Positions 7,909 through 64,000 of a stretch of DNA of 64,000 nucleotides are shown in pieces (within the stretch, counting starts at the first letter, position 1; every line of letters starts with the position of its first letter). The DNA is taken from positions 6,639,001 to 6,703,000 of the forward strand of contig OZ014415.1 in assembly GCA_963965975.1 (NCBI GenBank). The letters are read 5' to 3'. The notes beneath the pieces are model-generated. The model worked only from the letters and a program-made list of their open reading frames with translations, was not told the DNA's origin and ran no database searches. A program made the position numbers and the translations under genes. This DNA comes from Xestospongia bergquistia (lineage: Eukaryota; Porifera; Demospongiae; Haplosclerida; Petrosiidae).

Positions 7909-10900
7909 TTATAACTTCTCTTTAATACTGTTAGCAATATCTTTTAGTAGTCTTTGATCATCTTGTTTTAACAGTACATCACAAACCTTAGTGAGATATT
8001 GCTCTGGATCTCTTTGAGCTTGTAATTGACTGTATAGCTCATGGACTACTTTGCTAGCTTTCTGATAATTAGATTGACCTTCTGTAGTCATTAATTGCAG
8101 TACACTTTGTCCTATTAGCCTCTTAGAGAAAAGACTATCAGTGATTTCATTCAGACACGAGGCAAAAGCTTTGCTGAGATCAGAAATGTGAGTGCGAAAT
8201 ATTTCTGATGGGTCAAACTCTTCTTCAATTGCTGTGGAAAAGCGGAAAAATCAATGCCTTCAAATGTTATTAACAAACCTGTAGTTGACTCTAGTCCTCT
8301 ACTTGTATCTTCATTGTCAGTAGGGGGTAAACCTGAATTAAATCTTTATATATGTGAAATCATTTCATGGTACTTACAATAATCATCCAGTGATACATCA
8401 AGGACAACTTTAGGTTGATTGTTGTTAGCTGATGTTTGACTTTTAGTATCAGTAACTTCAATACCTTCAATAGTTAGAGGATACTGTAGTTGTTCTTCAA
8501 AGTCACTTGTGTTAGGATGAGCACGTATTAGTACAGGAATATATGGAGGACTAGCACTCTTTGATTGATTATAATCATCAACATCTCTTTTGTTGATCTA
8601 TAAATAAAATAGATATCATAACTAATTTGATTATAACATTACATTGTTTACTTACTAAAGGAGGTATACGTAAAGGTTGTACTCTCCAACCTGTAGACAT
8701 TACATCATCAGCAGGGAATCCAGAAAGCTTTAACATCATTTCTGTATCACTCTCCCTTTCAGACATTTCCTTTTGTTCTCTTGATGGAAGTGTGTTAGTA
8801 GAAAAATGAAATCGAAAATGAGAATGCTTTTCTCCAAATTCAGCACTAGATGACAAATCTTGAAGACACTATAAATGGAGTGTATGTAGTTATACATAAA
8901 TCTTATATAATTTTATTACTTTGGAATACTGGATATCTTGTGTAATAGCTAAATTCATATGCCATTTCTTAGGACCAATACGTTTATAAAAGATATAAGC
9001 TTGATAGTAACAGTTAGGATATTTGATATCATCACCTAATATTATCAGAATAATTAATTAGTACAATATAAATGATAATTTCTTACCAAGTCCTCCTACA
9101 AGATGTGCTACTAAGGCAGCACCACCTATCACAGCAGCTGCACCACCTCCAACCACAGCTCCACCAACAGCACCACCAACTGCAGCAGCTGTACCACCAG
9201 CAATAATGAGCACTATAGCCAACAATGAAAACTGTTTGAGAGATATAGTGCCACATTGAGATTCAGAGGAGAATGATCCTCCTGGTAGGTAGTCAAACTT
9301 AAATGGTGGACCTGATTTAGCAGCAACAAAAGACAAATATTGTGTCTGTCTCTCATCAGTTATATTAGCACAATGTATTAACTCAACAGTAACTGGTTTG
9401 TTGAGCTCAGAGGAACTGGATACTGATATATAACACACTCCACTGATAAGTGTGCTACCTTCTGGGAACACAAATTTGCCTGCACCCCACAAACTTTGAG
9501 CAGCTACTTCATATATAGAATCTAATGGTATGATGACCTCTCCAGGGATGACAAGTCTTAACCCACATTGTTCCAATATTAACTCATGTTCAGTGTGAGC
9601 ATTGAACAGACAAAGTTTCTTTCCTACTGTCACCATTCCTTCAAATGAGTCTATATAACATTAACAGTGCATTAGTAAAGTAGTACATATGATAGATATA
9701 GGTTACCTGATATGTTAGTGTAATTCCAATAGTCACATTGTATAGACTTATCACTGAAGTCAGTAGAGACTTGTATAGACTTATCACTGAAGTTAGTAAA
9801 GTCTTGTATCTTGTTTTGTAGATCAAGTAAACCTGATGATAAGTCATATTATGTTCAAATTATACATAGACAGTTATTGTGTTTAATTTAGTGTATCTCT
9901 TTACTAATACTAGTGAGATACAATGAGCTACACATACCATCCCTTTGTCCTTCTACTCATCCATTAATCTGTCCATCCATCTCTCTACCTTCCATTGATC
10001 GATTCATTTATCCATCCATTCATGTAATGTATGTATGTTCGATATAGCTCTTACCAGGAATGACATGTTTCATATCAAGATGAAGTAAAGCCTCTTCAAG
10101 TTGTGTCAACGTACCTCCTTTTAGAGACCATTCCTCTAACAAGTACTTCATTTGTTCTGTAGAATCTCCTTTACTTCTAATATCAGTCAGTACAGATTGA
10201 TCTATATTAAGTTGATGACCCAGTCGTTCCCAATACTCTTGTACTGGTTGTAGAACAACAGCCAGTTTGGGAAGATAACTGACAACATCTGATGTGATAT
10301 GTAAAATAAAGTAATTAACTGTTACTTACAATAATAACTAATACCTGTAGTCTTTTGAGAACTCCTGAGTGAGAGTAGTTGATGACTGGTTACCTTGAGT
10401 TGTTGTAGTGCATCTTCCTTCTCTTTTGAGACAGTAAGTAGTCTACGATTTAGTTGAGCTATATAGCTATCCTTTTGTTGTACTAGATCATGTAGTTGTT
10501 GTAAGTTATGATGATCACTGGTAGTTGAGACTATAATATAATGAAATGATTGAATTAATACAATAACAACATTCATTAATTAATCTCTCAATACACTATT
10601 CATCTATCTATACTTTGACCCTATATAAATACATGTATTGTACACTCACTCTGTTGATTAGATTGTTCTAGTTGTTTTTGTAGTGTTGTTATGATCTCAT
10701 TCTTCCTTTGAAGTTCAGCTATGTTGTTGTTTTTCTCTTGTACTATAGTGAAGTAAGTAACAACACTTAATGAAATATAGTTTGTTTGTTCAATATATGA
10801 ACAGGTACATTAATTAACTATCCTTTGTATTGTTCATTTATTTATTTAATCATTCATCCATTACTTCATTCATTTATCCATTCTTTCATTCCATTCTATC

Positions 10901-17453: not shown

Positions 17454-20126
17454 CAGGCAACATCTGATGATGAAGAACGTACTGTTTTGCAGTTTCATTA
17501 TACAGCTTGGCCGGATAAGAATGTTCCTGCTCAAGCTTCACCAGTTCTTGACTTCCTCAGAGCTGTAAACTCTGCTAATAACTTGTCATCTTATGGACCA
17601 ATGGTGGTTCACTGCAGGTATGTGAAAAATAATTATTTGACTGATAGTTAGATAGATAGATTGACGAATGGACTAATATTAAAAAGGATATATGAATGAA
17701 TGGATATATGGTTAGATACTTCAATTTAATGGACACTTACAAGATTTATAGAGACAAGTAGTTACTCTATCTTTCTATATTTTTAGTGCTGGTATAGGAA
17801 GGACTGGTACTATTATTGCTCTTGATATTTCACTTGACCAGTTAAAAAGAGAAGATGAAGTTGATGTAAAAACAGTTGTTAATTTCTTAAGGCAACAAAG
17901 AACTCAAATGGTTCAAGTCTTGGTAAGGAATGAGGAGATCAGTGACAAATGAAGGGAGAGTGACTGTAATATTAATAATGACATACACAATAGATAATTT
18001 ATCAGAGGTCAAAGGTCAAGTAAGATGTCAACAATGAACAGTCAGTACTTGTGTTTAGACTACATGTTTGTGTAAATATTGTGTTTTGGTTGGCAAAAGA
18101 GTAAAAGATGATTCTCTGTGGACATTAGTGTGATTTAAATATATGCATGCCAAGAGCTGTAATCTAAGGGTCACATTGACCTTTGACCTTTGGTGTTTTA
18201 ATAGTATTCAGATACTTCTTTCTAAGAGTTCAATTAGACTATCATTTGTCATTATTTTTTAAATTATATTTTTAGCCTCAGTACATTTTTATTCATCATG
18301 CTATCCTTGAGGACATTGTCTATGGTGACAGCTCTGTATTAGTAAATGACTTCTCAGAACATTACAATTTGTTGCAGACATCAGAATGTACACTTATTAG
18401 TGATGAATTCAATAAGATAGGAAGTGTAAGACCACTTGCTCAGGCCAGTGCAGGACCTGCTGTTGTTCCTCTAATAACAGAAAGTGAGTAAAGAGAGAGA
18501 GAGAGAGAGACTAAGTAATCAGAGCCACAAACTGTTGTATTGACATACACTGATTGTAGGAGTTAGCTAATAAACATAATTTTGATCTTATAATTACTAC
18601 ATGTACTTCTAATCTTTGTCTTGTCATTAGATAAAGTAGATGTTGATAACTACACTGCTCACTATCTTGATGTAAGTTTTAATATTATTATTTAACACTG
18701 CTTTAAATAATATTGTTTATTATTTAGAGTTACTGGGTACCAAAACTCTTTATTGCTAGTTCCTGTCCTACTAGTGCTAACTTGGAACATTTCTGGAGAT
18801 TGATATGGGAAGAAAAGTGTACTCATGTCATCAACATGTCTCCCAAAGACATTAATGTAAGTGACCTACCTACCCTCTGGTGTGTAGATATTTTTATTAC
18901 AAATGTATTGAGATTAGTACATGTATTACTGTGTATGTTTTTCCTTAGATATTTAATTATTTCCCTGACTCTGGTTCTGAGATGATCATAAGTGACCTTA
19001 GAGTAAAAGTACAGAGGAAAGTCTTTATGGCTGGATATACCTTAAGAACTATTATTGTTTCATCTGAACAGGTTTGAACAAATGAATAAATGAATGAATT
19101 GAATGGATGGACTAGAGGACTAGAATGATAAGTGGATTAATGTTTGGATTAGTATACAAATAGATTAATGGGTGTATTAATAATTATTATTCTCTGTTAT
19201 TCATTTTTAGAGTAAAAACAAGTTAAGTATTCATCATATGCACTATCAAGACTGGCAAACTAAACATCTTCCTCGTGTTGATAAATTTGTTAAGTTTGTT
19301 TTGGAGTGTCTGAGAGAAGCAGATCAGCCAGATCGTAATGGTAGACCAATGTTGATACATGATGAGTTAGTTAACACACATGAACATAATATGTCTCTCT
19401 TTTTGTCTATTTATATGTCTGTTCATCTTTCCAATTCTCTCTCTCTCTCCCTCCCTCCCTCCCTCTACATCCCATCCATGTATCCATTATTCCATTCATC
19501 TATTAATTCTTCCATCCATTTTTCCATTAATGTTGATGGATTGATGAATAGATAATTTGATAATATCCCTTGCTCCACCCATTCATTTATTTATTCTTCC
19601 ATCCATTTTGATTGTTGGATAAATACAATGAAGAGAAAGATGGAAGATAATAGAGGGATGGAACAGGATTGATGAATGGATGTCTTGATCCACCCATTCA
19701 TCACTGTAAATTTATTCATTTATATATTATCACTAAACTCCACCCATTGACTTTTTATTGTTTATTATTTTATATAGTGGTTCAATGGGACCAGTTGGAG
19801 TATTTGCTGCTCTCAGTTACTGTTTTCAAAGAGCTAGAAAGGAGCGTTTAGTTGATCTCCTTCAAACTGTCAATCATCATCATCTGCAATGTCCTGGACT
19901 AATCTGTAATCTACAACATTATGCTTACTGCTATGACTGTTTAGAGGACTACACAACAAAGTTATTGAAAGAGACATCAGAGCCTCCAATCTATGAAAAC
20001 ATCGCCTCATTTCGTGGCAAATTACAACCTTCACCAGAACCCACTTTACCCGAACCCATTGATGAGGCCTGTCAAGAAGTTGAAGAACTAGGATATGATA
20101 TAGTTGACTGGAATGCATTACAGTGA
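16674..20126 (+). CDS. Tandem protein tyrosine phosphatase, active D1 and dead D2
   Basis: Thirteen exons: 16,674-16,759; 16,809-16,885; 16,934-16,970; 17,038-17,135; 17,270-17,389; 17,457-17,617; 17,787-17,922; 18,276-18,483; 18,631-18,671; 18,728-18,856; 18,949-19,071; 19,211-19,365; 19,778-20,126. D1 has every hallmark of a classical [39 protein letters not shown], the WPD loop (AWPDKNVP), the catalytic loop [10 protein letters not shown] and a Q loop. It should remove phosphate from tyrosine in the cytoplasm. D2 (from about 18,631) has lost catalysis: WPD is WQT, and the loop reads HDDGSMGPVG, without Cys or Arg. The tail has a possible phosphotyrosine site (YENI). The first exon reads FEELNNLL in one frame and KNRYKNI in another, so a base is lost or gained near 16,705 or the splice differs. 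The 5' exons and any membrane segment are unresolved. Confidence 0.8.
17421..17449. repeat. CT dinucleotide microsatellite in PTP intron
   Basis: About 14 CT units just before the acceptor of the WPD-loop exon, acting as an extended pyrimidine tract. Similar CT runs occur at 6,965-6,990, and a GA run at 18,491-18,510. Confidence 0.9.
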
Positions 20127-31465: not shown

Positions 31466-31487
31466 TTATTATGTAGTTATATTTACA

Positions 31488-32536: not shown

Positions 32537-35500
32537 TTAATATATCATACCTTTATATTTTGACATTATTTTATCAGCTAAGTCTTGTTGATTTAAACTA
32601 TCGTCTCTTAAAATATCTAGGAAAATCATGAAGGTACTAACATTGTGTTTGACATGATCCTTTAGATCATCAAGAATATAGTCAAGACGATCTGTAGTAG
32701 TATCTCCTGTTTTCTTGTCTTTAACATTTTTGTAAACATCTTCAGAAATAATTTCTTTTGAATACAGTTTCCTTGCTAGGGCAATGGGGTCAATATTAGA
32801 CACAACAATAATATCGGTACATTGAACTAATGTCCTTCTACATATTTCATAGTTTAAAGTATCATCTAGAGTAAAGAGACAAAACATAGAGTTGTTAGTA
32901 GTATATCAAAAAGAAAAGGTCATCTATAATGAGATGAATAGTCTGTATCATATGACATGCAGTCATGACATTTATTAATGTGATACATAGATCTCTTGAA
33001 ACATAAACAATCTGAAAGGGTAATACTGTGACTTACCTGCAGCTGAATGCTTCACACCTTCATCATGACTAATAGATGAACCTGAATAGAAAAAAGAAAA
33101 CATTTCATTAAATATCTGTCACAATATTTAGAATTAATAACTTCATCTTTCAAATTACAAATATTTATTCTTTGTTAAAATATTATTTTATTATCACTCA
33201 CTATGTGTGTAGTCAGTGACCAGAGATTCACTATAAATGACAACTTTAGGTGGACTACTGTCAGCAGTAGTAAGTTCAATACCCTCAATAGTTAGAGGAC
33301 ACTCGAGCTCTTCTTTAGCGTTAGGATCACCATGTATTAACACACGAATGTAAGGAAGACTGGCACTCCTTGACTGATTGAAGTCATCAATAGCTCTCTT
33401 ACTAATCTATTAAAAATAACTACTGTTAAAAGACATGTTTATTTGCTTGCATAATGTGAATTTATAAGTCATGTACATAATATAACCAACAGTGAAGTGT
33501 TTACTTACCACAGGAGGTATTAGTAAAGGTTTCACTTTCCAATCTTTAGTTGTATTCTTATCAAATCCTGATAACATTAATATTTCTTCTCTTTCCATTT
33601 GTTTTTCAGCTAATTTATCCTGTTCTTGTGAAGGCTTAGTAGCAAAATGAAATCTAAAGTTAGAATGTTCTATTCCAAACTTATCACTTGATGTCAGTTC
33701 TTGTACAAACTAGAGACAATTATTATATAAGGAACATACACAGTATTATATTACTTTGGAGTAATCAATATCTTGAGTAACAGCAAAGTTCATGTACCAA
33801 GTCTTTGGACCAATACTTTTGTAACAAACATAAGCTTGATAGTCAATATTAGGAAGTGGAACACTGTCAACTAAATATGAATTAATTATTGAAACACATA
33901 AGTTATTTGTTTTTACCTTCTATCTGATGATGACCTACAGCTGCATCAGCTAAACTATGGCCAATCAATCCTCCTGCTACTACTCCAGCAACAACACTTC
34001 CTGCTCCTAGGGCAACACCACTGACCACAGCAGCTGCTCCACCAACTACAGCACCGCTAATAACAAGTACTATAGCTAGTAAAGAGAACTGCTTGAGAGA
34101 TATAGTGCCATATTGAGATTCAGAGGAGAATGACCCTCCTGGTAGGTAGTCAAACTTAAAGGGTGGACCTGTTTTAACAGCAACAAAGTGTAGATATTGT
34201 GTCTGTCTCTCATCAGTTATATGAGCACAATGCATTAACTCAACAGTAACTGGTTTGTTGAGTTCGGAAGAACTGGATACTGATATATAACACACTCCAC
34301 TGATAAGTGTGCTACCTTCAGGGAACACAAATTTGCCCAAACCCCACAAACCTTGAGCAGCTACTTCATATACAGACTCTATTGGTATAATAACCTCTCC
34401 AGGGATGACAAGTCTTAACCCACATTGTTCCAATATTAACTCATGTTCAGTATGAGCATTGTAGAGACAGAGCTTCTTTCCTACTGTCACCATTCCTTCG
34501 AATGAGTCTATACAACATTAACAATACATTAGTAAAGTACTACATATGATAGGTATAGGTTACCTGATATGTTAGTGTAATTCCAATAGTCACATTGTAT
34601 ACACTTATCACTGAAGTCAGTAAAGACTTGTATAGACTTATCACTGAAGTCTTGTATCTTGTCTTGTAGATCAAGTAAACCTAATGATAAGTCATATTAT
34701 GTTCAAATCATACATAGAAAGTTATTGTGTGTAATTTAATGTATCTATTACTAAGGAGACACAATGAGCTACACATATCCATCCATCTCTCTACCCTATA
34801 GTGATCTATTCATCTATCCATCCATCCATGTAATGTATATACATTCCATATAGCTCTTACCAGGAATGACATGTTTCATGTCAAGATGAAGTAGAGCATC
34901 TTCAAGTTGCGTCAATGTACCTCCTTTTAGAGACCATTCCTCTAACAAGTACTTCATTTGTTCTGTAGAATCTCCTTTACTTCTAATATCAGTCAGTACA
35001 GATTGATCTATATTAAGTTGTAGACCCAGTTGTTCCCAATACTCTTGTACTGGTTGTAGAACAACAGCCAGTTTAGGAAGATAACTGACAACATCTGATG
35101 TGATATGTAAAATAAAGTAATTAACTGTTAATTAAAATAATAACTACATGTAGTACCTGTAGTCTTTTGAGAACTCCTGAGTGAGAGTAGTTGATGACTG
35201 GTTACCTTGAGTTGTTGCAGTGCATCCTCCTTCTCTTTTGAGACAGTGAGTAATCTATGATTTAGTCGAGCTATATAGCTATCCTTTTGTTGTACTAGAT
35301 CATGTAGTTGTTGTAAGTTATGATAATCACTGGTAGTTGAGACTATAATATAATGAAATGATTGAATTAATTAATCAATCAATCTATCAATTCATCTGTC
35401 CATTCATCCATACACTATCCATGTGTTTATCCATTGACCCTATATATATACATGTACATAATATACACATGTACGCTCACTCTGTTGATTAGATTGTAGT

Positions 35501-38500
35501 GTTGTTATGATCTCATCCTTCTTTTGAAGTCCAGCTATATAGTTGTCCTTCTCTTGTACTATAGTGAAGTAAGTAACAACACTTAATGAAATATAGTTTG
35601 TTTGTTCAATACATTAACAGGTACATTAATTAACTATCCTTTGTATTGTCCATTTATTTATTTAATTATTCATCCATTTCTACATTCAATTATCCATCCT
35701 TTCATTTATCTGGCCATTCATCAATTAGTCCATCTATCCTACCTTGTTGAGAATCTAGTTCTAGTAGTCTCTCTTGAAGACTCTTTATGTTTTGTTGAGC
35801 AACTAAGAGATCATGAAGAAGAGTTTGACTATTAGCTTGAGCACCTCTTTCTTCATTTTTTGTTGGTTGGAAAGTTTCTGGAACAAACTCAATGCCCTCC
35901 TTCCTACATTGCTTTCCATTATTAAATCTCTCTATATCCTTGATGACTCCAGAAGGATCTGTCAGCATATTAGAGTCTAGTACAAACCCTACTGACCATT
36001 GACCATCATTGAGAACTATATGAGAGAACACAACAATACTAATGTCAGTATACAATGTAGTACTACTAGTATAACATATATGATAGTAATAAGACTATAC
36101 TATGTAGTACATAACAAGGTCACCTGTTATATAATAGTACATGTATTATACACTACATGTAACATTACCTATACTTACATGATGTATATGTAATAATAAC
36201 TAAAACATATAAACAATACTACACATGTAGTCAATAATGTATACATACAATGTTAGTAATACTACCAGTTTAATATAGACTGGACTGAATGTATATATAA
36301 TAAAGGAAATATTAATAGGTTATTATTAAATGAATACTAAGAACTACATACTTGTATATACATGTATGTAGTTCTTATGATACATTATATCAAGTCAACA
36401 TTGAACACACCTACTAACAGTACCATGGAGGGATACTTTGTAATATATTACCATATGATAATAACCTCTACCACACCCCCTTAATAACCTACACAATATC
36501 CATTGTATCTTATGTATATATGTTATATGTAGTCAATGTAATATCTATATTGTGTGTGCAATGACTTACTTACCTAGTTCTATCAACATTGTTTTATTGG
36601 GGTCTCTGATAGTTGCTGTCTGGAACTTTAAAAGACCTCCTACAACTATTAACCACACACAGTGTGGTCCCATGATAAATTTTGATAGAGAGTGGGCTTC
36701 TCTCTCAGTGACAGAGTCAGGTAGATTGATCTGTAGTATATAGAGACATAAATATTATTACATCATTTATGACCAAATTTATGTGTATTCAGATTGGAGA
36801 ACTATATTAGAGTAATAATTTAGTTTAAGTAAACTGTCATTTTGTACAAAGGTGATAATTATGATAACAATAAAGATAACAACATATTAAAATATATCAG
36901 TAGTAAATGAATATGATTTATTATACTTCTTAATATATGGACAGTTACATGTACTAACTTAGTAACTATCATTGTATAATAAATTAGAGGTATATTATCA
37001 ATGACATACCTTTGTCCATGACTTCTCATTAATATCTAATATCCAACAGTCCTTTATTGTTTTGTTATTATTATCCAGTCCACCTATCATTACTAGTATA
37101 GGTGGTATAGATCCAGTGATAATACTGGCAGCATGAGTCCACCTTTCCTCTGGCCATTGTACTACTTGGTCAGGTTTAGCTATAGTCTGCCAGTGCTAGA
37201 TAGACAAATGAACTCAACTAACACTCATTATATAGCATGTTATCAGTCAGTGTATGAATGATAATATAACTTACCACAGTATGGTTGATGATATCCAGTA
37301 TATAGAGTGTATTAGATGCTCTGCCTTCAACTACACCACCAAAGATGATTGCTCTTGTATTGTTTACTGCTTCCATAACAAAGCTACTATTAGGTGGCAT
37401 ACATTGTCCAATAATCTCAGGTATGATCCATTGACCTAAAGGAGAACACTCATCATTATACTTGTATCATAATAATAGTTAGATAATTCATCATGACACA
37501 ATGATCAGTAAAATGTATTATTGCTACCTAGCAATATATTTCATGTAGTCTTATAATTGTTTTGGAATCTATATATTAATTGTATATTATAATGTCCACT
37601 TTAGCAAATTTAATAAATTGCGAGTTTATTATATTATGTAAATTATGTGACTTTTGAGAGAAACAAATGAAATTAAACTAATGAAATTAAAATGATATAT
37701 TAATGTTATTACCTGTTGTCAGGTCATATATATTATGTTCATTAGTAGATTTTAGACCATCATCTAACTGATGATATTTAGCTTTTGGTAATTGGTTAGA
37801 GGGTGGGGATCCATAACCTCCAATAACTAAAAGAAAATGATGTCCCATTTGTTCACTTGACATCATACCACCGCTAGCTCTCTTCATCACTGTTATATTG
37901 TCATCAGTAGGTTGTAGTTGGGTCCAGGTAAGGGTAGAAATATCAAATTCATTGAGACTGTTATGGTAACAATGGTTGTGCTGACACCAGCCGCCGAAAT
38001 AATAAATTTTGTCATTTGATGAAATACATAGGTACTCTTTCACCCCTAGAGGGGGACTGCTATTGGTTGGTCTAGAGCTCCATATGCCAGACGTAATGTT
38101 GAATATTGCAATCTGTGATGTTAGTCTTCTCTTCTCATCATTATTGTGTACAAAAGGTATTTCATTCCCACCCCACAGGTACAGGTTATCTCCTATTACT
38201 TGAGTCCTATGTTTAAATCTTTTATCAAGTTTGTATTGTCCTGTAGAGAATGATATGTACCATATCTTGAGATCAGGTTACAGTATAAGGTAATATACCT
38301 ACAGTATGTCATCACATCTACTACAAGACTTGTACAAAGGCTATACTAATTATATACTTGACATATACTTCACAAACCTAACCCTCATCTTCTACTATAT
38401 ATTATGATACATGTAGTCCATACATTATACTAGTCTCACTAGTTAGACACTCACTGTAAAGAAAGATGCTCTAGTTAGTGAGACTACATAATATCTGCAA

Positions 38501-41584: not shown

Positions 41585-42935
41585 CTAATCCTGTTGAGAA
41601 GGATGCTGTTCTAACTGATCAATATCTTTGTTGAACATGCTCTGTTTGTTGAAGATAATTTTGTTGACATTGATCTCTAGCTTGTCTTGTCTCTTGACCT
41701 CATCTTTATCATAGTTATCTTTCTCTTTGTAATAAGCAAAATGTTCATCTTCTTTCAGCCAATTCCTTATCTTCTCTCCAAGATCTAAATTCTTACCAAA
41801 AATGACACTTTCCACAGATTCTATTATAGTATTCCAGGTAACAGGAGAACACTGTGTTTGTATCCATCGTCTTATAATTTTGTCTAAATTTACAATATCA
41901 TCATCACTACTCTTCAATCCTTTCACAAATCCATCATTAACATCAAGTGCAAGGGCTAGCTTTTTAATGCATTTTGAGCTAAGAGCTCCACAACATGTCT
42001 CTTGTCAGGTCTCTTGTTGAGAAGTTTGTTAACGGTAATAGAGAACATAATTAAACATTTCATAGTCAAATCAATTAGAACTACTCTGGACTACATTTTT
42101 ATATCTGTGAAAATTTTAAGGTATGAATAAATTCAAAATTTAATCACGTTGAATACTGATTGCAATGATAATATAGTTAATCACACTTTTTAATAGAGAC
42201 GAAGGTGTGTAATTAAACTATTGATATTATTATACCCATAGCAACAATACAATTACATAATCAACTTACTTTTAGCATTTTCTAATCCTCTTACAGATTG
42301 TCTTGTAACGGTACCTATAAAAAAAAGAAATTAATGACATGTAATTAATTGTCTATTTTAAATTATATGACAATGTTATCACCACATACCTGATGTTGAC
42401 TGTGAAGATATAGCTGATTGTTCTTTGTAAGCAATTGATGGACCTACATAAAAAGAAGTATAAAATTAAATCACACCCTGCTTACTTATATGTGGAAAAA
42501 AATTAGTATTCAATACATTATTATGCCAGATCATTAGACTTACTGTGAGTATATGTTCTATAAAGGACTATTTTAGGTTGACTATTATCAGCAGTAGTGA
42601 CTTCGATCCCTTCAATGCTAAGAGGATATTGCAGCTGTTCCTTAAAATTACTACATTCAACTATTAATATAGGAATATAGGGAGGATTGGCACTCTTAGA
42701 AGCATGAAAGTCATCAAAATCATTCTTGTTAATCTATAGATCAAAATAAATCATTAATACTATAATATTGTGCTGTTTAGTTCATAGCTGCTCTAATTTG
42801 ATGACAAGATGTCTATATAACATTATAATATATCACTTACCACAGGAGGCATGTGTAAAGGCTCAACTCTCCAACCTTTTATGATAACCTCATTACCAGG
42901 GAATCCTGTTAACTTAACTATCCTTTTTTCACCAT
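41585..42935 (-). pseudogene. Broken duplicate of the family 3' end (UPA-like plus Death)
   Basis: Minus-strand exons without a 5' part. 42,841-42,935 is the end of a type-1 UPA exon (GFPGNE, GWRVEPLHMPPV). 42,545-42,733 is the next UPA-like exon. Two short linkers follow at about 42,390-42,445 and 42,280-42,315 (VTRQSVRGLENA). The last exon, 41,585 to about 42,035, is a Death domain nearly identical to gene D's. That exon lacks about seven bases near 41,965 and is shifted out of frame. Upstream of 42,935 the sequence switches to a second copy of gene D's 3' flank. It mixes type-1 UPA exons with the Death terminus, a combination no intact gene here has. Confidence 0.65.
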
Positions 42936-43319
42936 GGAGAGACTTGGCAGCCACACCTAGACCTTGGAAGACACTTTATCATACGATCTATTACATAATT
43001 AAGGTTCCTGTGTCATGGTCACCTCCTCTCTACCCACCACCGAATCCTATTGAGAATGAAACTGTTCTATCTTGTTGAGCATGCTGTTTGTTGAAGTTAC
43101 TAAAAAAGACTAAGATTATTGTGAAGACATTGATCTTTAGCTTTTCCAGTCTCTTCTATCTCATCTTGAGACTGTTATTACTTATAAAGTGGTCAAGGAG
43201 TCAAAAATGTAAAGTTTAAAAATCTTTTTTGGCAACATTAGAAAAAATTTCACTACAGATTATAATAGTGTCTTAAAACATAGTGTAAGATATATAGTGT
43301 TAAGGTTTCAAACAATTAG

Positions 43320-46300
43320 TTAGTTATCTTTCTCTTTGTAATATATAAAATGCTCATCTTCTTTTAGCCAATTCCTTATCTTCTCTCCAAGTTCTAAATT
43401 CTTACCAAAAATGACACTTTCCACAGCCTCAATTATAGTATTCCAGGTGACGGGAGAACACTGTGTTTGTATCCATCGTCTTATAATTTTGTCTAAATTT
43501 ACAATATCATCATCACTACTCTTCAGTCCTCCCACAAATCCATCATCAACATCAAGTGCAAGGGCTAGCTTTTTATATTCATTTGCATTTTCAGCTAAGA
43601 GCTCCACAACATGTCTCTTGTCAGGTTTTTTGTTGAGTATTTTATTAATATCATTTCCTATAATAGAGAACACAATTACACACATCATAATGTAAGAGTA
43701 TAAATTTTCATAGGGGATTTAATTTTGCTGTATTTGTTGCTCATTGCTTTATCATGAAATTTAACTTTTATTCCACCCACGCATAATCACGCAAGGGGAT
43801 CGTGTTGGCTACTTCTTTCTCTTTTACACACTGAGGTACTTCTGCATCAACTACCTCCCAGATTTTCTTGCATATATGGCACCCTCTCACCATGGATTCA
43901 TAGGAATAACTAGCCATACTTTGCAAAAATTACGCTTGTGTTCACAACACGTGTCTGATACCACACCCATTAATTAATGCTTCACACCCACTAAACACGA
44001 AAGTTAATACCCACGAAATTTAAATAAAAAAGCAAAATTTAAAAAACACAAAAATTTAAACCCTCGAAAATTTATACCCTTACGGTAGTCAAATCAATTT
44101 GAAATACTCTGGGCTACATTTCATTGGTGTGAAAATGTTAAGGTATGAATAAATTTAACCATATTGAATACCTTCAGCATTTTCTAATCCTCTTACAGAT
44201 TGTCTTGTAACAGTAGCTATAAAAAATAAAGAAATTAATGACATTTAGTTGATTGTCATCCTTACCAACAGATCGGACAATGCAGATCTCTGGAATCAGG
44301 GTTTCTCTTTCTTTAACAACATTTACTTTGATACCATTTAAAGTGATACGATATTGAAGTACTGGGACAGTAGTATCACTGGGAGTAGCAGACACTGTCA
44401 TAAAACAGGAAGGAAACTGAGGAGGACTTCGATCATATAACATATCTACATCAACTTGACTAATCTATGTTATGAGATAACAATGGTATGTAGTTATTAA
44501 AACATTGTTATATACCCTAGTAGGATAGGAATGTGGATAAATATTCCATCCTTGAGGAAAAGGATGATCTTCTCTAATAACTAATTCAATATATCCATTC
44601 TCCTCTTGAAACTTGAAGTATATATGGACATCTTTTTCAGCACTTGGAAGTGAAGTGTGAATATACTGTATACAATTAGAACAAATCTCATAGTCACTCA
44701 GTACTACAGAACTCTTACCTTTAAAAGAGCATCAAGATGTAGTGAAACAAAAAATCTCATCAACCATTGAGTTTGACGTTTTACTTCATACACTACTTGA
44801 CCAACATACAGATTGACTGGAGAGCATCTTAAAGAAGACTCATCTAATGATATATTAATATGATAACCATCACAATTTGTTATTAAATAAACCTTTGTTC
44901 CTCATAGAAAATGGTTCATCTGAGGCATCCACAAAAAGAGATTCATCATCAGATGACGAAGACTGTGACAGAGGAGGACTAGTACTACCACTATGTACAA
45001 TAACACCTTCAAACTGGGGAGCAGTACCATCTTCATCAGCTTCATAACCTAATAGCCATCTTATTGGTCTCAAGACAGCTTTAACAATTGCTTTTAAAGA
45101 GAACTGAGTAGGAATACTGCCATATTGCTCTCCAGGATAGAACTGTCCTCCTTGTTCCAATTTAAACTTGTATGGTAGTACAGGTTGATATAGATCAGCT
45201 GTAACAAAACTGAGATAACTAGTGTGTTCTTGTGTCTCTAAAGATACACAATGTTGAATGGATAACTGGACAGGTTGAAGGAGGGCTCTGGAAACAGAAA
45301 TGGAGTAAACAGCACTGACCAGTGATGTACCAGAGGGAAACTCGAACTTTCCCCCTACAATTGCTGCAATAGATACTTCACATATTTCACCAGCAGGCAT
45401 CGTTCCATGAGGTATATTAATCCTCAAACCATACTCCTCCCAATTTAATAACTGAGTGTGTTCTCCTTGTATATAAAATAGTATTTTACCAGCTATATGA
45501 CCACCAGTACCATCAATATACTCTAGTTGATCTAGTATATATGATATATCAATATGACAATATAATAGATAATATTATTGACATACCAAGAGAAGGAACA
45601 AGATAGTTGAACTGACATTCTACATCTTTGGTAGTCACTGTACCACCTATATCAGTGGATATAATAGATACTTGTGTGTTGTCTTTTCCTTTTTCTTGAA
45701 TTGATAAACGAGCTTCTTTTAACTCTTGTAAACCTAAAAATGTTATAGACAGCAATATATAGTGATGTTCTGTAATGGTTTTATAAATTGTTTAAGTAAT
45801 ATAGTAATGAAAATTTCATTGTAACAAAATGCCTTCTAAATATAAATATTTTGTACAAAATTACTTTTACAATGAATAAGAAATGAATAATTATAATGAT
45901 GAATATTGTTATAATAGAGATCATTACAATAGTTGAGTAGCTACTTTCTGAGAGAAGTTATTCTCTATATTACATGTAACAATTAAATTATTAAAAGCTA
46001 TAGTATAGCTTATAGCTTTATAAGTATATAGCTTTATTTCTTATCATTGAAGTTAGCCATGTGAAAAGGTTTGATGAAATGAAATCCCATGTTAAATGTT
46101 TTTCATAGGTAGAACAAAATATAAACTTTTTGATGTGAACATTATAATATAACATGGCTTCTATAGACTACAATATCTTCTAGATTTACAGATTTTGTAA
46201 GATACAAATTACATAGTCTTACCAGGAATGACATGTTTCATTTTAGGATGACACAAAGCGTGTTCAAGTTGTGTCAATGTACCTCCTGTTAGAGACCATT

Positions 46301-49300
46301 CCTCTAACAAGTACTTCATTTGTTCTATAGGATCTCCTTTACTTCTGATATCAGTCAGTATAGATTGATCTATATTAAGTTGTAGACCCAGTTGTTCCCA
46401 ATACTCTTGTACTGGTTGTAGAACAACAGCCAGTTTGGGAAGATAACTGACAACATCTGATGTGATATGTAAAATAAAGTAATTAACTGTTAATTACAAT
46501 AATAACTAGTACCTGTAGTCTTTTGAGAACTCCTGAGTGAGAGTAGTTGATGACTGGTTACCTTGAGTTGTTGTAGTGTATCTTCCTTCTCTTTTAAGAC
46601 AGTAAGTAGTCTATGATTTAGTTGAACTATATAGCTATCCTTTTGTTGTACTAGATCATGTAGTTGTTGTAAGTTATGATGATCACTGGTAGTTGAGACT
46701 ATAATATAATGAAATGATTGAATTAACACAATAACATTATTCATCCATCAATACGTCAATACATCTATCCATTCATCCATACACTATCCATGTATCTATC
46801 CATTGACCCTATATACATACATGTACATACATACACATGTACACTCACTCTGTTGATTAGATTGTTCTAGTTGTTTTTGTAGTGTTGTTATGATCTCATC
46901 CTTCTTTTGAAGTTCAGTTATATAGTTGTCCTTCTCTTGTACTATAGTGAAGTAAGTAACAACACTTAATGAAATATAGTTTGTTTGTTCAATACATGAA
47001 CAGATACATTAATTTTATCCTTAGTATTGTTCATTAATTTATTTAATCATTCATCCATTACTTCATTCATTTATCAATTCTTTCATTATATCCATTGACC
47101 CTATATACATACATGTACATACATACACATGTACACTCACTCTGTTGATTAGATTGTTCTAGTTGTTTCTGTAGTGTTGTTATGATCTCGTCCTTCTTTT
47201 GAAGTTCAGTTATATAGTTGTCCTTCTCTTGTACTATAGTAAAGTAAGTAACAACACTTAATGAAATATAGTTTGTTTGTTCAATACATGAACAGATACA
47301 TTAATTAACTATCCTTAGTATTGTCCATTAATTTATTTAATCATCCATCCATTACTTCATCTATTTATCCATCCTTTCATTCCATGTATCTTTCTGTCAG
47401 ACTGTCCATCCATCCTTTCATTTATCTGCACACTTTTCATTAGTCCATATACCCATTGATAAAGTAATTAACTGTTACTTACAATAATAACTAGTACCTG
47501 TAGTCTTTTGAGAACTCCTGAGTGAGAGTAGTTGATGACTGGTTTCCTTGAGTTGTTGTAGTGTATCTTCCTTCTCTTTTAAGACAGTAAGTAGTCTATG
47601 ATTTAGTTGAGCTATATAGCTATCCTTTTGTTGTACTAGATCATGTAGTTGTTGTAAGGTATGATGAAATAATTGAATTAATACAATAACAACATTCATC
47701 CATTAATCTGTCAATACATCAGTCCATTTATTCATACACTATCCATGTATCTATCCATTGACCCTATATACATACATGTACATACATACATATGTATACT
47801 TACTCTGTTGATTAGATTGTTCTAGTTGTTTCTGTAGTGTTGTTATGATCTCGTCCTTCTTTTGAAGTTCAGTTATATAGTTGTCCTTCTCTTGTACTAT
47901 AGTAAAGTAAGTAACAACACTTAATGAAATATAGTTTGTTTGTTCAATACATGAACAGATACATTAATTAACTATCCTTAGTATTGTCCATTAATTTATT
48001 TAATCATCCATCCATTACTTCATCTATTTATCCATCCTTTCATTCCATGTATCTTTCTGTCAGACTGTCCATCCATCCTTTCATTTATCTGCACACTTTT
48101 CATTAGTCCATATACCCATTGATAAAGTAATTAACTGTTACTTACAATAATAACTAGTACCTGTAGTCTTTTGAGAACTCCTGAGTGAGAGTAGTTGATG
48201 ACTGGTTTCCTTGAGTTGTTGTAGTGTATCTTCCTTCTCTTTTAAGACAGTAAGTAGTCTATGATTTAGTTGAGCTATATAGCTATCCTTTTGTTGTACT
48301 AGATCATGTAGTTGTTGTAAGGTATGATGAAATAATTGAATTAATACAATAACAACATTCATCCATTAATCTGTCAATACATCAGTCCATTTATTCATAC
48401 ACTATCCATGTATCTATCCATTGACCCTATATACATACATGTATATACATACATATGTACACTTACTCTGTTGATTAGATTGTTCTAGTTGTTTTTGTAG
48501 TGTTGTTATGATCTCATCCTTCTTTTGAAGTTCAGTTATATAGTTGTCCTTCTCTTGTACTATAGTAAAGTAAGTAACAACACTTAATGAAATATAGTTT
48601 GTTTGTTCAATACATGAACAGATACATTAATTAACTATCCTTAGTATTGTCCATTAATTTATTTAATCATCCATCCATTACTTCATCTATTTATCCATCC
48701 TTTCATTCCATGTATCTTTCTGTCAGACTGTCCATCCATCCTTTCATTTATCTGCACACTTTTCATCATGTATCTATCCATTGACCCTATATACATACAT
48801 GTACATACATACATATGTATACTTACTCTGTTGATTAGATTGTTCTAGTTGTTTTTGTAGTGTTGTTATGATCTCATCCTTCTTTTGAAGTTCAGTTATA
48901 TAGTTGTCCTTCTCTTGTACTATAGTAAAGTAAGTAACAACACTTAATGAAATATAGTTTGTTTGTTCAATACATGAACAGATACATTAATTAACTATCC
49001 TTAGTATTGTCCATTAATTTATTTAATCATCCATCCATTACTTCATCTATTTATCCATCCTTTCATTCCATGTATCTTTCTGTCAGACTGTCCATCCATC
49101 CTTTCATTTATCTGCACACTTTTCATCATGTATCTATCCATTGACCCTATATACATACATGTACATACATACATATGTACACTTACTCTGTTGATTAGAT
49201 TGTTCTAGTTGTTTTTGTAGTATTGTTATGATCTCATCCTTCTTTTGAAGTTCAGTTATATAGTTGTCCTTCTCTTGTACTATAGTGAAGTAAGTAACAA

Positions 49301-52300
49301 CACTTAATGAAATATAGTTTGTTTGTTCAATACATGAACAGATACATTAATTAACTATCCTTTGTATTGTCCATTTATTTATTTAATCATCCATCCATTA
49401 CTTCATCTATTTATCCATCCTTTCATTCCATGTATCTTTCTGTCAGACTGTCCATCCATCCTTTCATTTATCTGCACACTTTTCATCATGTATCTATCCA
49501 TTGACCCTATATACATACATGTACATACATACATATGTACACTTACTCTGTTGATTAGATTGTTCTAGTTGTTTTTGTAGTGTTGTTATGATCTCATCCT
49601 TCTTTTGAAGTTCAGTTATATAGTTGTCCTTCTCTTGTACTATAGTAAAGTAAGTAACAACACTTAATGAAATATAGTTTGTTTGTTCAATACATGAACA
49701 GATACATTAATTAACTATCCTTAGTATTGTCCATTAATTTATTTAATCATCCATCCATTACTTCATCTATTTATCCATCCTTTCATTCCATGTATCTTTC
49801 TGTCAGACTGTCCATCCATCCTTTCATTTATCTGCACACTTTTCATCATGTATCTATCCATTGACCCTATATACATACATGTACATACATACATATGTAT
49901 ACTTACTCTGTTGATTAGATTGTTCTAGTTGTTTTTGTAGTGTTGTTATGATCTCATCCTTCTTTTGAAGTTCAGTTATATAGTTGTCCTTCTCTTGTAC
50001 TATAGTAAAGTAAGTAACAACACTTAATGAAATATAGTTTGTTTGTTCAATACATGAACAGATACATTAATTAACTATCCTTAGTATTGTCCATTAATTT
50101 ATTTAATCATCCATCCATTACTTCATCTATTTATCCATCCTTTCATTCCATGTATCTTTCTGTCAGACTGTCCATCCATCCTTTCATTTATCTGCACACT
50201 TTTCATCATGTATCTATCCATTGACCCTATATACATACATGTACATACATACATATGTATACTTACTCTGTTGATTAGATTGTTCTAGTTGTTTTTGTAG
50301 TGTTGTTATGATCTCATCCTTCTTTTGAAGTTCAGTTATATAGTTGTCCTTCTCTTGTACTATAGTAAAGTAAGTAACAACACTTAATGAAATATAGTTT
50401 GTTTGTTCAATACATGAACAGATACATTAATTAACTATCCTTAGTATTGTCCATTAATTTATTTAATCATCCATCCATTACTTCATCTATTTATCCATCC
50501 TTTCATTCCATGTATCTTTCTGTCAGACTGTCCATCCATCCTTTCATTTATCTGCACACTTTTCATCATGTATCTATCCATTGACCCTATATACATACAT
50601 GTACATACATACATATGTATACTTACTCTGTTGATTAGATTGTTCTAGTTGTTTTTGTAGTGTTGTTATGATCTCATCCTTCTTTTGAAGTTCAGTTATA
50701 TAGTTGTCCTTCTCTTGTACTATAGTAAAGTAAGTAACAACACTTAATGAAATATAGTTTGTTTGTTCAATACATGAACAGATACATTAATTAACTATCC
50801 TTAGTATTGTCCATTAATTTATTTAATCATCCATCCATTACTTCATCTATTTATCCATCCTTTCATTCCATGTATCTTTCTGTCAGACTGTCCATCCATC
50901 CTTTCATTTATCTGCACACTTTTCATCATGTATCTATCCATTGACCCTATATACATACATGTACATACATACATATGTATACTTACTCTGTTGATTAGAT
51001 TGTTCTAGTTGTTTTTGTAGTGTTGTTATGATCTCATCCTTCTTTTGAAGTTCAGTTATATAGTTGTCCTTCTCTTGTACTATAGTAAAGTAAGTAACAA
51101 CACTTAATGAAATATAGTTTGTTTGTTCAATACATGAACAGGTACATTAATTAACTATCCTTTGTATTGTCCATTAATTTATTTAATCATCCATCCATTA
51201 CTTCATCTATTTATCCATCCTTTCATTCCATGTATCTTTCTGTCAGACTGTCCATCCATCCTTTCATTTATCTGCACACTTTTCATCATGTATCTATCCA
51301 TTGACCCTATATACATACATGTACATACATACATATGTATACTTACTCTGTTGATTAGATTGTTCTAGTTGTTTTTGTAGTGTTGTTATGATCTCATCCT
51401 TCTTTTGAAGTTCAGTTATATAGTTGTCCTTCTCTTGTACTATAGTAAAGTAAGTAACAACACTTAATGAAATATAGTTTGTTTGTTCAATACATGAACA
51501 GATACATTAATTAACTATCCTTAGTATTGTCCATTAATTTATTTAATCATCCATCCATTACTTCATCTATTTATCCATCCTTTCATTCCATGTATCTTTC
51601 TGTCAGACTGTCCATCCATCCTTTCATTTATCTGCACACTTTTCATCATGTATCTATCCATTGACCCTATATACATACATGTACATACATACATATGTAT
51701 ACTTACTCTGTTGATTAGATTGTTCTAGTTGTTTTTGTAGTGTTGTTATGATCTCATCCTTCTTTTGAAGTTCAGTTATATAGTTGTCCTTCTCTTGTAC
51801 TATAGTAAAGTAAGTAACAACACTTAATGAAATATAGTTTGTTTGTTCAATACATGAACAGGTACATTAATTAACTATCCTTTGTATTGTCCATTAATTT
51901 ATTTAATCATCCATCCATTACTTCATCTATTTATCCATCCTTTCATTCCATGTATCTTTCTGTCAGACTGTCCATCCATCCTTTTGATTATCTGCCCATC
52001 CTTTTATTAGTCCGTTATATCCATTTATCTATCCACCCTACCTTGTTGAGATTCAATGTCTAATAGTCTCTCTTGAAGACTCTTTATGTCTTCCTGTGCT
52101 ACTAATAGATCCTTACGATAGTTAGATTGAAGTTCTTTCTCTTGTGAGCTTTCTTCCTTCTCATCTTTTTCTGAATTCTTCTGAGGTCTGGTGTTATCAT
52201 AGACTGACTTGATAACACTTAGTGCATTAGAGTCTAATACAAACCCTACTGACCATTGACCATCATTGAGGACTATATGAGAGAACACAACAGTACTAAT

Positions 52301-55249: not shown

Positions 55250-55342
55250 CTCTTTACATTTTAAAATACGCCTCCAAGTATGTGGAAATGCTATGCCCAA
55301 TTTACTAAAGAGTGGAGCTCAATGGTGCATTTATAGATAGTA

Positions 55343-56640
55343 TAGCAAGGGCTGATCCGGGGGGGGGGGGGTTGGTAAGGGTGGATTTCCACCCCCCTTT
55401 TCTCATGAATTACTTAATATAAATAATTTTAATAAAGCCAATAATTAATCAATTGAAAAGAACTGAATCACAAGTCATTTTTCTAGGGTTTCTTAATTTA
55501 AATTGTTCACAACATTTTTCTATACTTATTTCATAATTGAATCCTTGCATCCCTATTACACCTAAATTGCCAAGTCTGTCAGAAGTCATTGTTGTTCGCA
55601 ACCATGTGTGAATCTGTCTTAAACACGAAAATGATCTTTCTGCTTCTGTGCTACATATTGGAAGAACTGCCAGGATACATAAAAGCTCCCTGACATTTGG
55701 ATAAAAAATGGAATCAGCATCTAATTTAAGTAGACTCATTACTGATCTTGGTTCTTTGATACTTTCACAGTGTACTTTCCATCATCTAAGTTCACTTTTA
55801 AAGTTATCTGGTGATGGCATCAGATGGGTCCATTTTGAAGCTAGGAGATCAGCTGTGTCAGTAATATCACTTTCATCCTTTTTAGTGATGATTTCAGGAA
55901 TTAAGGAGCAAAGCTCATAATGTGCCCGTTTTTCTGGTGCAAACCTACACTCTAACTCAGAAACAATTGAGTCAAGGAAGGGAATTGTAACTGTTACTTT
56001 CCAGTAATCTTTTGGAGATGTAACATCAGGATTTGATCTCATTGTTTGTCTTCCCTTCAGTATGCGTGGTATGTCCTCATTACTCCCTATGTCATCTGCC
56101 AGCTTGAGAGCTTTAGAGTAAACAGAATTGGGCTGATCTGAGCCATTTTTCCTTCCAAAATTTGGGTGAGAAGATTACTCTGTTAATCTGGCAGTGTCTT
56201 AATAGACCTTTAGAAAATACCTTATTTACTTCTTAACATAGAAGTATTGCTTTGTGATATACTTTCATAAAATAATATGTATGCTTACTGGTTAATAATA
56301 GTTTCTAATCCCTGCCTTTTACCTGTCAAATGACATACTAACTTATATACATACTAACTTATGTATACCACAAAGTTTGTATGATGGCATTGACAAAATA
56401 TGCAATGCCAATGTTCTTTATTCCGCAACCCACTATTGGTAGCATTCTCTCATTGTCTGTTATTAGTTCCTCCATTTCACACTCCATCTCTGAACTCAAC
56501 AAAAAATTTCTGCACAAGAGAATAGATCACTTATATAAAAGATGCAAAATCGTAATTACAAAGAGTGGACTTGAACTGGATCAGAGCTTGTTCAGGGGCA
56601 TGCATTAATCAAGACCATAGCAGAATTATGCAACATACAA
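55343..56640 (-). mobile_element. Decayed hAT transposon
   Basis: Left end near CAAGGGCTGATCC followed by a run of G. The minus-strand transposase is partly preserved: 55,782 to about 56,163 (RQTMRSNPDVTSPKDYWKVT, then IPFLDSIVSELECRF) and 55,449-55,739 (PICSTEAERSFSCLRQIHTW, LRTTMTSDRLG), the latter being the hAT dimerisation region. The two parts lie in different frames, and the N-terminal zinc finger and DDE parts are not visible. No right-hand inverted repeat was found. It lies about 100 bp upstream of the start of gene D and could affect its promoter. Confidence 0.75.
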
Positions 56641-56851
56641 TAGCACTGTAGGCAAGAACCACTCAGCCTAACAATTTAGTATTGTGTGGTATATACATAA
56701 GTGCCATCACTATATGTTATGTTTAAGTATATATGTACTTTTAGCAAATAACTATTGAATTTTAAGTTCAGTTATACTCCAAATACACAGTATATATAGA
56801 GAAATATATTCAACTCTGTAGTTATGTGGAGTTCAACGAGATGATACATAT

Positions 56852-61000: not shown

Positions 61001-64000
61001 TCCTTTACTTCTAATATCAGTCAGTACAGATTGATCTATATTAAGTTGATGACCCAGTTGTTCCCAATACTCTTGTACTGGTTGTAGAACAACAGCCAGT
61101 TTGGGAAGATAACTGACAACATCTGATGTGATATGTAAAATAAAGTAATTAACTGTTAATTACAATAATAACTAGTACCTGTAGTCTTTTGAGAACTCCT
61201 GAGTGAGAGTAGTTGATGACTGGTTACCTTGAGTTGTTGTAGTGTATCTTCTTTCTCTTTTAAGACAGTAAGTAGTCTACGATTTAGTTGAGCTATATAG
61301 CTATCCTTTTGTTGTACTATATAATGTAGTTGTTGTAAGTTATGATGATCACTGGTAGTTGAGACTATAATATAATGAAATGATTGAATTAATACAATAA
61401 CAACATTCATCAATCAATATGTCAATACATTTGTCCATTCATCCATACACTATCCATGAATCTATCCATTGACCATATATACAAACATGTACATAATATA
61501 CACACGTACACTTACTCTGTTGATTAGATTGTAGTGTTGCTATGATCTTATCCTTCTTTTGAAGTTCAGCTATATAGTTGTCCTTCTCTTGTACTATAGT
61601 GAAGTAAGTAACAACACTTAATGAAATATAGTTTGTTTGTTCAATACATGAACAGGCACATTAATTAACTATCCTTTGTATTGTCTATTTATTTATTTAA
61701 TCATTCATCCATTACTTCATTCATTTATCCATTCTTTTATACCATTGTATCCTTCTGTCAAACTGTCCATCCATCCTTTCATTAATTCACACATGGAATT
61801 TATCCTACCTTGTTGAGATTCTAGTTCTAGCAATCTCTCTTGAAGACTCTTCATGTTTTGCTGAGCAACTAAGAGATCATTATTATAACTAGGAACTTTC
61901 TCTTTTAATGAATTACCTTGAATTTGTTCTATCCATTCTCTTCTTACTTTTGTCAGTCTTTTTAATACTCTTTGTTGGTAGTCATCAGTTGAGGTCAAAT
62001 CATTAGAGTCTAGTACAAACCCTACTGACCATTGACCATCATTAAGGACTATATGAGAGAACACAACAGTACTAATACCAGTATACAATGTAGTACTACT
62101 AGTATAACATATATGATAGTAATAAGACTATACTATGTAGTACATAACAAGGTCACCTGTTATATAACAGTACATGTATTATACATTACATGTAACATTA
62201 CCTATACTTACATGATGTACATGTAATAATAACTAAAACATATAAACAATACTACACATGTACTCAATAATATATACATACAATGTTAGTAATACTACCA
62301 GTTTAATATAGACTGGACTAAATGTACATATAATAAAGGAAATATTAATTGTTTATCATTAAATGAGTACTTATTATATCAAATATCTATAACTTAAGGA
62401 ATTTAAATATATGTGATCATTAGATAATACATTTTTATTTGTATACATTCAATAGAACTATTATAACTATATGTGTATATATATGTATGTAGTTCTTATG
62501 ATATATAATATCAAGTCAACATTGACCACACCTAGTAACAGTACTACAGAGGAATAATTCAAAGGAGATCATATTATTATATGATAATAATTTCTACCAC
62601 ACCTCCTTAATAACTTCCTTTAATAATCTCTACCATATCCATTGTGTCTATATGTAGTCAATGTAATATCTATATTGTGTATGTAATGACTTACTTACCT
62701 AGTTCAATTAACATTTTTATATTGGGGTCTGTGACACCTGCACCTTCATACTGTAGTACACCTCCTATAACTGTTAACCACACACAATATGGTCCCATGA
62801 TAAATGTTGATAGAGAGTGGACAGATCTCTCAGTGACAGAGCCAGGTAGATTAATCTGTAGTATGTAGAGATATAAATATTATTACATCATTTATGACCG
62901 AATTTATGTGTATTCATTCAGATTGGAGAACTATATTAGAGTAATAATTTAGTTTAAGTAAACTGTAATTTTGTACAAAAGTAATAATTATAATAACAAT
63001 AATGATAACAACATATTATAACATATTAGTAGTAAATGAATATGATTTATTATACTTCTAAATATATGGACAGTTACATGTACTAACTTAGTAACTATCA
63101 TTGTATAATAAATTAGAGGTAATATGATATATTATTAATGACATACCTTTGTCCATGACTTCTCATTAATATCCAATATCCAACAGTCCTTTATTGTTTT
63201 GTTTGCCTTACCCAATCCACCTGTCATTACTAGTATAGGTGATATTGATCCAGTGATAATACTGGCAGCATGACTGTCTCTTTCCTCTGGCCACTGTACT
63301 ACTAGGTCAGGTTTAGCTATAGTCTGCCAGTGCTAGATAGACAAATAAACTCAACTAACACTCATTATCTAACATGTTATCAGTCAATGTAGTAATGATA
63401 ATATAACTTACCACTGTATAGTTGATGATATCCAGTATATAGAGTGTATTAGATGGTGTGCCTTCAACTAAACCACCAAAGATGATTGCTCTTGTATTGT
63501 TTACTGCTTCCATAACAAAGCTACTATTAGGTGGCATACACTGTCCAATAATCTCAGGTATGATCCATTGACCTAAAAGGAGAACACACTCATCATTATA
63601 CTTGTATCATAATAATAGTTAGATAATCCATCATGACACAATGATTAGTCAAAATGTATCATTACTACCTAGTAGTGTATGTAAGGTAGTCCTATAATTG
63701 TTCTGGACCACGTGGAATCTCTATATTGAATGTATTATTGTATGTGATTTTCAAGAGCAACATATGAAATTAAACCTATAATTAAAATTTATATAATGTT
63801 AATACTTAATATAACTAGTACAGAGAACATATAATAATATATCATATAATATATCATATAATAACACTGATTGTAATAAGTGATATCTGATAATATAATA
63901 TGATATATTAATGTTATTACCTGTTGTCAGGTCATATATATTTTGTTCATTAGTAGATACTCTACCACTAGGTAATCGATAATATTTAGCTTGTGGTAAT
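58082..64000 (-). CDS. Gene E (partial): kelch-coiled coil-Death-ZU5-UPA-CARD type II
   Basis: Runs off the right edge inside the large kelch exon. Exons from the edge: 63,921-64,000 (partial); 63,412-63,572; 63,147-63,332; 62,699-62,855; 61,809-62,048; 61,516-61,593; 61,179-61,364; 60,889-61,122; 60,553-60,711; 59,903-60,496; 59,739-59,854; 59,505-59,681; 59,220-59,457; 58,082-58,401. Kelch, coiled coil and Death match gene A. The linker holds three 33-bp units, the most in the family. ZU5 is type 1 with a long Gly/Ala/Val stretch. UPA-like exon 14 has absorbed the separate linker exon 15. The terminus is the CARD-like type of gene C (LARKLYAKEIMSDNVY, VMIFVDILR). A long intron (58,402-59,219) precedes it. 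Confidence 0.85.
60585..60683 (-). repeat. In-frame 33-bp minisatellite in the linker exon
   Basis: Three 33-bp units (60,585, 60,618, 60,651) coding an 11-residue repeat around TDFSDKSIQVS. Copy number differs between paralogs: one in copy 0, two in gene A (about 9,745-9,810), two with a 9-base deletion in gene C, three here. All changes keep the frame. Confidence 0.85.

Follow-up and report, generated by a model that had tools for sequence, protein, structure and literature searches.

What kind of molecule results when a kelch propeller is joined to the domains of an inflammasome-type core? The question is raised by a tandem gene array in the sponge Xestospongia bergquistia, whose genome assembly (GCA_963965975.1) comprises 146.5 Mb in 21 contigs. 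We analysed a 64,000-nucleotide stretch of contig OZ014415.1 (positions 6,639,001 to 6,703,000 of the forward strand), hereafter the window, to which unlabelled coordinates refer. Five minus-strand genes, A to E, follow one common plan there: a six-bladed kelch head, a coiled coil, Death, ZU5, a UPA-like region and CARD, with a terminal Death domain in gene D. These genes probably belong to a lineage-expanded family of intracellular recognition receptors in which both heads and outputs can be swapped. At the sequence level, this proposal is supported by what reads as a conserved six-bladed kelch scaffold with hypervariable loops, followed by a coil, Death, a ZU5 fold and a terminal CARD or Death. 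Elsewhere in the genome, by the same kind of evidence, the same head appears joined to a kinase and the same core to a leucine-rich repeat (LRR) head.

Five genes on one plan

Gene C was modelled by hand from the sequence, and its exons served as templates for A, B, D and E and for other loci. In genes A to D every intron is GT-AG, the intron phases agree and there are no internal stops. A preliminary description, made without database searches, had recognised four complete genes with open frames and a partial one, extending from 7909 to 64000, and this picture holds: the stop codon of gene A ends at 7909, the array extends to the end of the window, and gene E leaves it. The remainder of E (the first kelch exon and the ATG exon) was found in locus L010. 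The 16-exon model put forward in that description fits A, B and C but not D, which has 28 exons and is longer than the others because a 93-nt coiled-coil exon is present 13 times in tandem. The genes and their main parts are as follows.

14285-7909, minus: gene A, 16 exons, 1131 residues; kelch, coil, Death, ZU5 with Gly/Ala-rich hydrophobic tail, UPA-like, CARD type a
29152-21663, minus: gene B, 16 exons, 1105 residues; kelch, coil, Death, ZU5 without hydrophobic tail, UPA-like, CARD type a
38569-32537, minus: gene C, 16 exons, 1139 residues; kelch, coil, Death, ZU5 with hydrophobic tail, UPA-like, CARD type c
55249-43320, minus: gene D, 28 exons, 1520 residues; kelch, coil, Death, ZU5 without hydrophobic tail, UPA-like, terminal Death
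beyond 64000 to 58082, minus: gene E, with 13 exons lying inside the window; kelch blades, coil, Death, ZU5 with hydrophobic tail, UPA-like, CARD type c
36574..38240, minus: gene C exons 2-5, six-bladed kelch head whose loop positions are hypervariable
35157..36015, minus: gene C exons 6-8, coiled-coil region, judged from sequence
34861..35094, minus: gene C exon 9, Death domain
33917..34507, minus: gene C exon 11, ZU5; Phe-Ser pair at 34088-34083, then Gly/Ala-rich hydrophobic segment
33202..33870, minus: gene C exons 12-14, probable UPA-like region
32537..32865, minus: gene C exon 16, CARD type c
46849..51799, minus: gene D tandem array, in which coiled-coil exon 7 (93 nt) occurs 13 times
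43320..43657, minus: gene D last exon, Death domain in CARD's place

Pfam scans of full-length A, B and C matched kelch at 2e-28 to 1e-34, with a model of the KLHDC2/KLHL20 type as the best, and placed the Death domain of exon 9 over the cut-off (1.7e-6 to 2.5e-7). At E 0.01 ZU5 was listed for B only; scanned as single exons, B gave 5.6e-6 and A 8.9e-4, the latter under the cut-off. The predicted structure confirms a ZU5 fold, and its top structural matches are ankyrins. Exons 12-14 are read as UPA-like from their position and order. Profile comparison supports a terminal CARD, with a weaker case for A and B: type c (C and E) matches at 95% (score 47.7 versus 14.8 for the best shuffle and 11.7 for Death), and type a, a candidate CARD (A and B), at 73% (31.9 versus 15.1). 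Compared with each other, the two types reach 9-15% only. Type d, the terminal domain of gene D, matches Death at 62% and CARD at 0.8%, and this last exon had no Pfam match at 0.1. Searched with PDB sequence profiles, neither ZU5-UPA nor either CARD type rose above chance level. Thus, the domain order of the preliminary description stands for kelch and Death (Pfam), for ZU5 (fold) and, with the grading just given, for the CARD of A, B, C and E, but the CARD of gene D turned out to be a Death domain, and UPA is assigned by position. Its expectation of two death folds is supported by Pfam for Death and by profile comparison for CARD.

A variable head and exchangeable modules

Six of seven GG pairs in the kelch part lie at strand-b ends, from which we read the propeller as six-bladed. 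All modules are under constraint, with median pairwise ratios of nonsynonymous to synonymous substitution (dN/dS, from Nei-Gojobori counts) of 0.28-0.76. Within the head, compared across 24 genes (2 of them kinase-type), variation is concentrated at particular sites: the 30 most variable of 342 positions include 12 within the 36 post-GG positions (hypergeometric p 7e-6) and 10 more in the blade-start pairs. Pooled dN/dS is 0.93 after GG and 1.55 at blade starts versus 0.37 elsewhere. In a held-out set of six kelch exons from contig 11 the pattern was repeated, with mean entropy of 0.59 after GG and 1.49 at blade starts versus 0.32 (p 0.0026). The variable positions presumably correspond to the loops that bind Nrf2 in Keap1. 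A role of the kelch propeller as a ligand-binding recognition head, proposed in the preliminary description, is therefore well supported by the pattern of sequence variation.

The family extends far beyond the window. Searches of the genome gave at least 150 matches to the kelch exon and 75 to the Death exon. Among the 150 kelch exons listed, 34 precede a same-strand Death exon (at 1.8-7.9 kb), 99 a kinase exon and 17 neither; the kelch-Death pairing used 68 of the 75 Death matches, the seven weakest being left out. Among the matches listed, a kinase follows kelch for 28 of the 76 exons of one list and for 72 of 75 on contig 11; the two lists share a single exon. The 75 exons of contig 11, spread over about 0.07-2.3 Mb, form a very large kelch-kinase cluster. 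Two kinase tails that were scanned matched Pkinase at 4e-31 and 2e-31, and their nearest PDB entries are CTR1 and TAK1, with IRAK4 lower down.

The order seen in the window recurs in the same genome. Of 20 kelch-Death loci fetched from four contigs, 17 have kelch 1-4, Death, ZU5, UPA 1-3 and a terminal exon; L010, which is counted here, is gene E itself. The exceptions are L015, which lacks the terminal exon, L019, with nothing after Death, and L025, without K2/K3. The automatic ZU5 exon model was cut short in four of the 17 (L012, L018, L023 and L027), which suggests that there may be broken copies. Certain pairs of places have similar scores (e.g. C5 6.78-6.80 versus 7.32-7.33 Mb); the counts may thus be inflated by recent duplications or by haplotypes left unmerged.

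The modules also occur in different combinations. Six of 34 Death exons without kelch have an LRR exon no more than 5 kb upstream, and for two of the six it is a single common exon; in L032, LRR_6 (5e-8) appears to head a Death-ZU5-CARD core. ZU5 with the hydrophobic tail is found with CARD a in A, L013, L016, L023 and L028, and with CARD c in C, E, L012, L020 and L021. ZU5 without the tail is found with CARD a (B, L009, L011, L014 and others), c (L018, L024) and type d (D). Codon-level nearest neighbours differ between modules in 23 of 23 genes, but this test of shuffling is crude and gives only a hint of it. At L030:1026-3831, a kelch head and coil exon stand directly before a type d Death exon, without ZU5. 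The preliminary description mentions neither the kinase as the commoner partner of the head nor the LRR heads that the core sometimes has. A protein database search returned no homologues at E 0.001 among 7993 scored candidates, which we attribute to the few animal proteins it holds rather than to true absence.

ZU5, a candidate cleavage site and competing readings

CARD8 and NLRP1 cleave themselves between Phe and Ser, and both that Ser and a His are required (PMC3210808, PMC8081665). In this genome, 41 of the 43 ZU5 exons covering the site have Phe at the corresponding position, and the next residue is Ser in 32, Cys in 9, Thr in 1 and Ala in 1. Structure comparison pairs residue 151 of the model with rNLRP1 978 and UNC5b 687, which, if ungapped, places 141 on F968 and L677; by the same count the CARD8 row (152 with 316) is inconsistent with F296. 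In eight structural rows, most of them GAIN chains, the alignment stops precisely at the Phe, and we take several of those chain ends to be GAIN cleavage sites. The ZU5 exons of L032, L034, L036 and L037 have His before the Phe, followed by Cys or Thr, not Ser. We consider self-cutting at Phe-Ser/Cys, by which a UPA-CARD piece could be released, a real possibility that falls somewhat short of an even chance.

Directly after the Phe-Ser site, A, C and E carry a Gly/Ala-rich hydrophobic segment, as do the fetched relatives of the same type. The 50 residues past the site contain 0-3 charged residues and, except in the short L028, 20-27 Gly plus Ala (10 rows, E and L010 being one gene). Peak hydropathy is 1.89-2.75 in seven loci with the segment; in 12 loci of the other type it does not exceed 1.69. 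Genes B and D lack it, with all other modules retained. Less certainly, copies with the segment may sit on a membrane; an anchor, a buried hairpin and a pore former are candidates for what it is. Neither the Phe-Ser/Cys site and this glycine-zipper-like segment nor gene D's Death ending and 28 exons figure in the preliminary description.

In the mechanism that we propose for a receptor of this kind, the variable face of the propeller would bind a ligand and the coil would form multimers. Ligand binding would free or cluster Death and CARD, nucleating the assembly of an adaptor or a caspase, and ZU5 with the UPA-like region would restrain CARD, as in NLRP1, CARD8 and UNC5b. Caspase-like exons gave 99 matches in the genome. 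A more daring version makes the protein a self-executing sensor. ZU5 would cut at Phe-Ser/Cys, leaving in A-, C- and E-type proteins a released piece made of a Gly/Ala-rich hydrophobic hairpin and UPA-CARD. Ligand binding by the variable kelch face would lead to removal of the N-terminal half, and CARD/UPA assembly would drive the hairpins into the membrane as a gasdermin-free pore. The hairpin-less sisters would use caspases, and the same head would drive a kinase in about 100 further genes. We regard this version as speculative and quite improbable. According to one review, Porifera have NLR and caspase-1 but no gasdermin (PMC11508797); our Pfam gasdermin search of the genome was empty, but the controls were equally silent, so it is uninformative.

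Several observations weigh against the receptor reading. None of the 43 ZU5 exons has His at the catalytic position (CARD8 H270, rNLRP1 H942), which holds Thr, Ala, Arg or similar; this position, 107 or 108, was placed by spacing from a conserved His, without residue-level structure alignment. The UPA-like region has no Pfam UPA match; the genome-wide Pfam search for UPA was also empty, with controls equally silent and hence uninformative. Every Pfam CARD match is under the cut-off, and the AlphaFold model of CARD type a is poor (predicted local distance difference test, pLDDT, 54.7), with no Foldseek fold match. CARD type c also weakly matches bDLD1, a bacterial death-like domain (6e-4, under the cut-off); we rejected that identity, the CARD profile match being much stronger. 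In the kelch analysis, the gene pairs pooled for dN/dS are not mutually independent, and the hypervariable positions were chosen after the entropy profile had been seen. The held-out contig-11 set, the only one of its kind, is therefore the fair test.

The missing His favours the strongest alternative, a non-cleaving scaffold. Here ZU5-UPA would do no more than pack on the terminal death fold, in the manner of UNC5b and ankyrins, the hydrophobic segment would simply anchor the protein in a membrane, and activation would come from ligand-driven clustering. The scaffold is favoured further by the ankyrins at the top of the structural matches, which are not known to cut themselves and which we count against autoproteolysis, and by genes B and D, which keep everything else without the segment. 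A mere scaffold fits less well with the Phe and Ser/Cys/Thr that occupy the exact scissile position even where ZU5 exons share as little as 20% identity, or with the Leu that UNC5b has in place of the Phe (PMC3210808). We treat it as a serious contender, though clearly not as the probable answer.

Allorecognition (self/non-self) or symbiont tolerance, rather than pathogen sensing, would equally suit a large clustered family with a diversifying recognition face, whose diversity would then track neighbours or symbionts. Since the layout appears cytoplasmic, with neither a signal peptide nor an outside domain in the models as we read them, cell-cell recognition would be less direct, and we judge such a role unlikely. 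Many kelch heads work with ubiquitin ligases or in the binding of actin, and the best Pfam kelch model here is of the KLHDC2/KLHL20 type; the proteins could thus be substrate adaptors for ubiquitin ligases or the cytoskeleton, with the death-fold modules as mere interaction parts. Yet full-length A, B and C contain no BTB, BACK, F-box or RING at E 0.01, variable loops would be unusual for a fixed substrate, and the kinase and LRR swaps point to receptors, making this very unlikely. Least credible is a fusion, made in the reading, of adjacent kelch and Death-ZU5-CARD genes: although the models rest on genomic sequence and some loci hold one half by itself, A, B, C and D have compatible intron phases and one open frame, the order recurs at 17 loci on four contigs, and the kelch-closing exon of L029 runs unbroken into the kinase.

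Related systems and neighbouring elements

NLRP1 and CARD8 (FIIND-CARD) have NACHT-LRR or a disordered stretch in front, where the window genes have kelch and Death; the window family also lacks the catalytic His, has a UPA assigned by position and, in some copies, carries the Gly/Ala-rich hydrophobic segment after the site. PIDD1 likewise places ZU5 (UPA) and a death fold behind a repeat-type head and carries an autocleaving HFS/SFS-type motif (PMC3210808). The window genes have one ZU5 and, except for gene D, a terminal CARD rather than Death; no LRR head was found in A, B or C, which have kelch instead. LRR-headed relatives such as L032 are closer to PIDD1 in plan. UNC5b and ankyrins (ZU5-UPA-DD) are without kelch, and UNC5b, with its Leu for Phe, is a cell-surface receptor. 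The GAIN domain of adhesion G-protein-coupled receptors differs in being extracellular and in having His-Leu ahead of the cleavage site.

Among sponge and other marine systems, TRADD-N/Death expansions and FIIND fusions with predicted autoproteolysis have been described (PMC8195603). They resemble the present family as marine lineage-specific expansions joining Death-like domains with propellers or ankyrins; the text of that paper does not mention kelch, and our Pfam scan found no TRADD-N in full-length A, B or C. Sponge NLRs form large clustered families with Death or CARD, NACHT-Zu5 among them (PMC12909245); unlike these, full-length A, B and C have neither NACHT nor LRR at E 0.01. A literature search on kelch with ZU5, Death and sponge or CARD returned MACC1 papers only; in passages of one of them, kelch is just an author's name and sponge a microRNA term. 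No earlier description of the architecture was found, most subscription journals lying outside that search, and the preliminary description's claim of an undescribed architecture is not contradicted by the literature searched.

If the receptor reading is correct, an animal has built a large intracellular receptor repertoire by placing a diversifying kelch propeller, instead of LRRs on NACHT, before an inflammasome-type core, and has swapped both heads and outputs within it. It would then become testable whether FIIND-type control is older than vertebrate NLRP1/CARD8, whether Ser/Cys cutting can proceed without His, and how cells are executed in an animal lineage reported to lack gasdermin (Porifera, PMC11508797).

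Fragments of the same plan and unrelated elements accompany the array.

41585..42942, minus: partial 3'-end copy (UPA exons and Death), downstream of gene D
4234..6500, minus: 3' gene remnant without kelch; half a Death exon, ZU5 with hydrophobic tail, UPA-like, CARD type a
about 31258-31476, minus: relic in the B-C interval, consisting of a ZU5 tail and a UPA exon
642-1894, minus: DDE_1 transposase (2e-25), adjacent to the array
55449-56174, minus: remains of a hAT transposase, a short way upstream of 55249, where the presumed exon 1 of gene D lies
7216-7587 and 19737-20126, plus: protein-tyrosine phosphatase exons, interleaved with the array on the opposite strand
29866-30192 and 39851-40228, plus: open frames between genes, without Pfam match, sharing similar stretches

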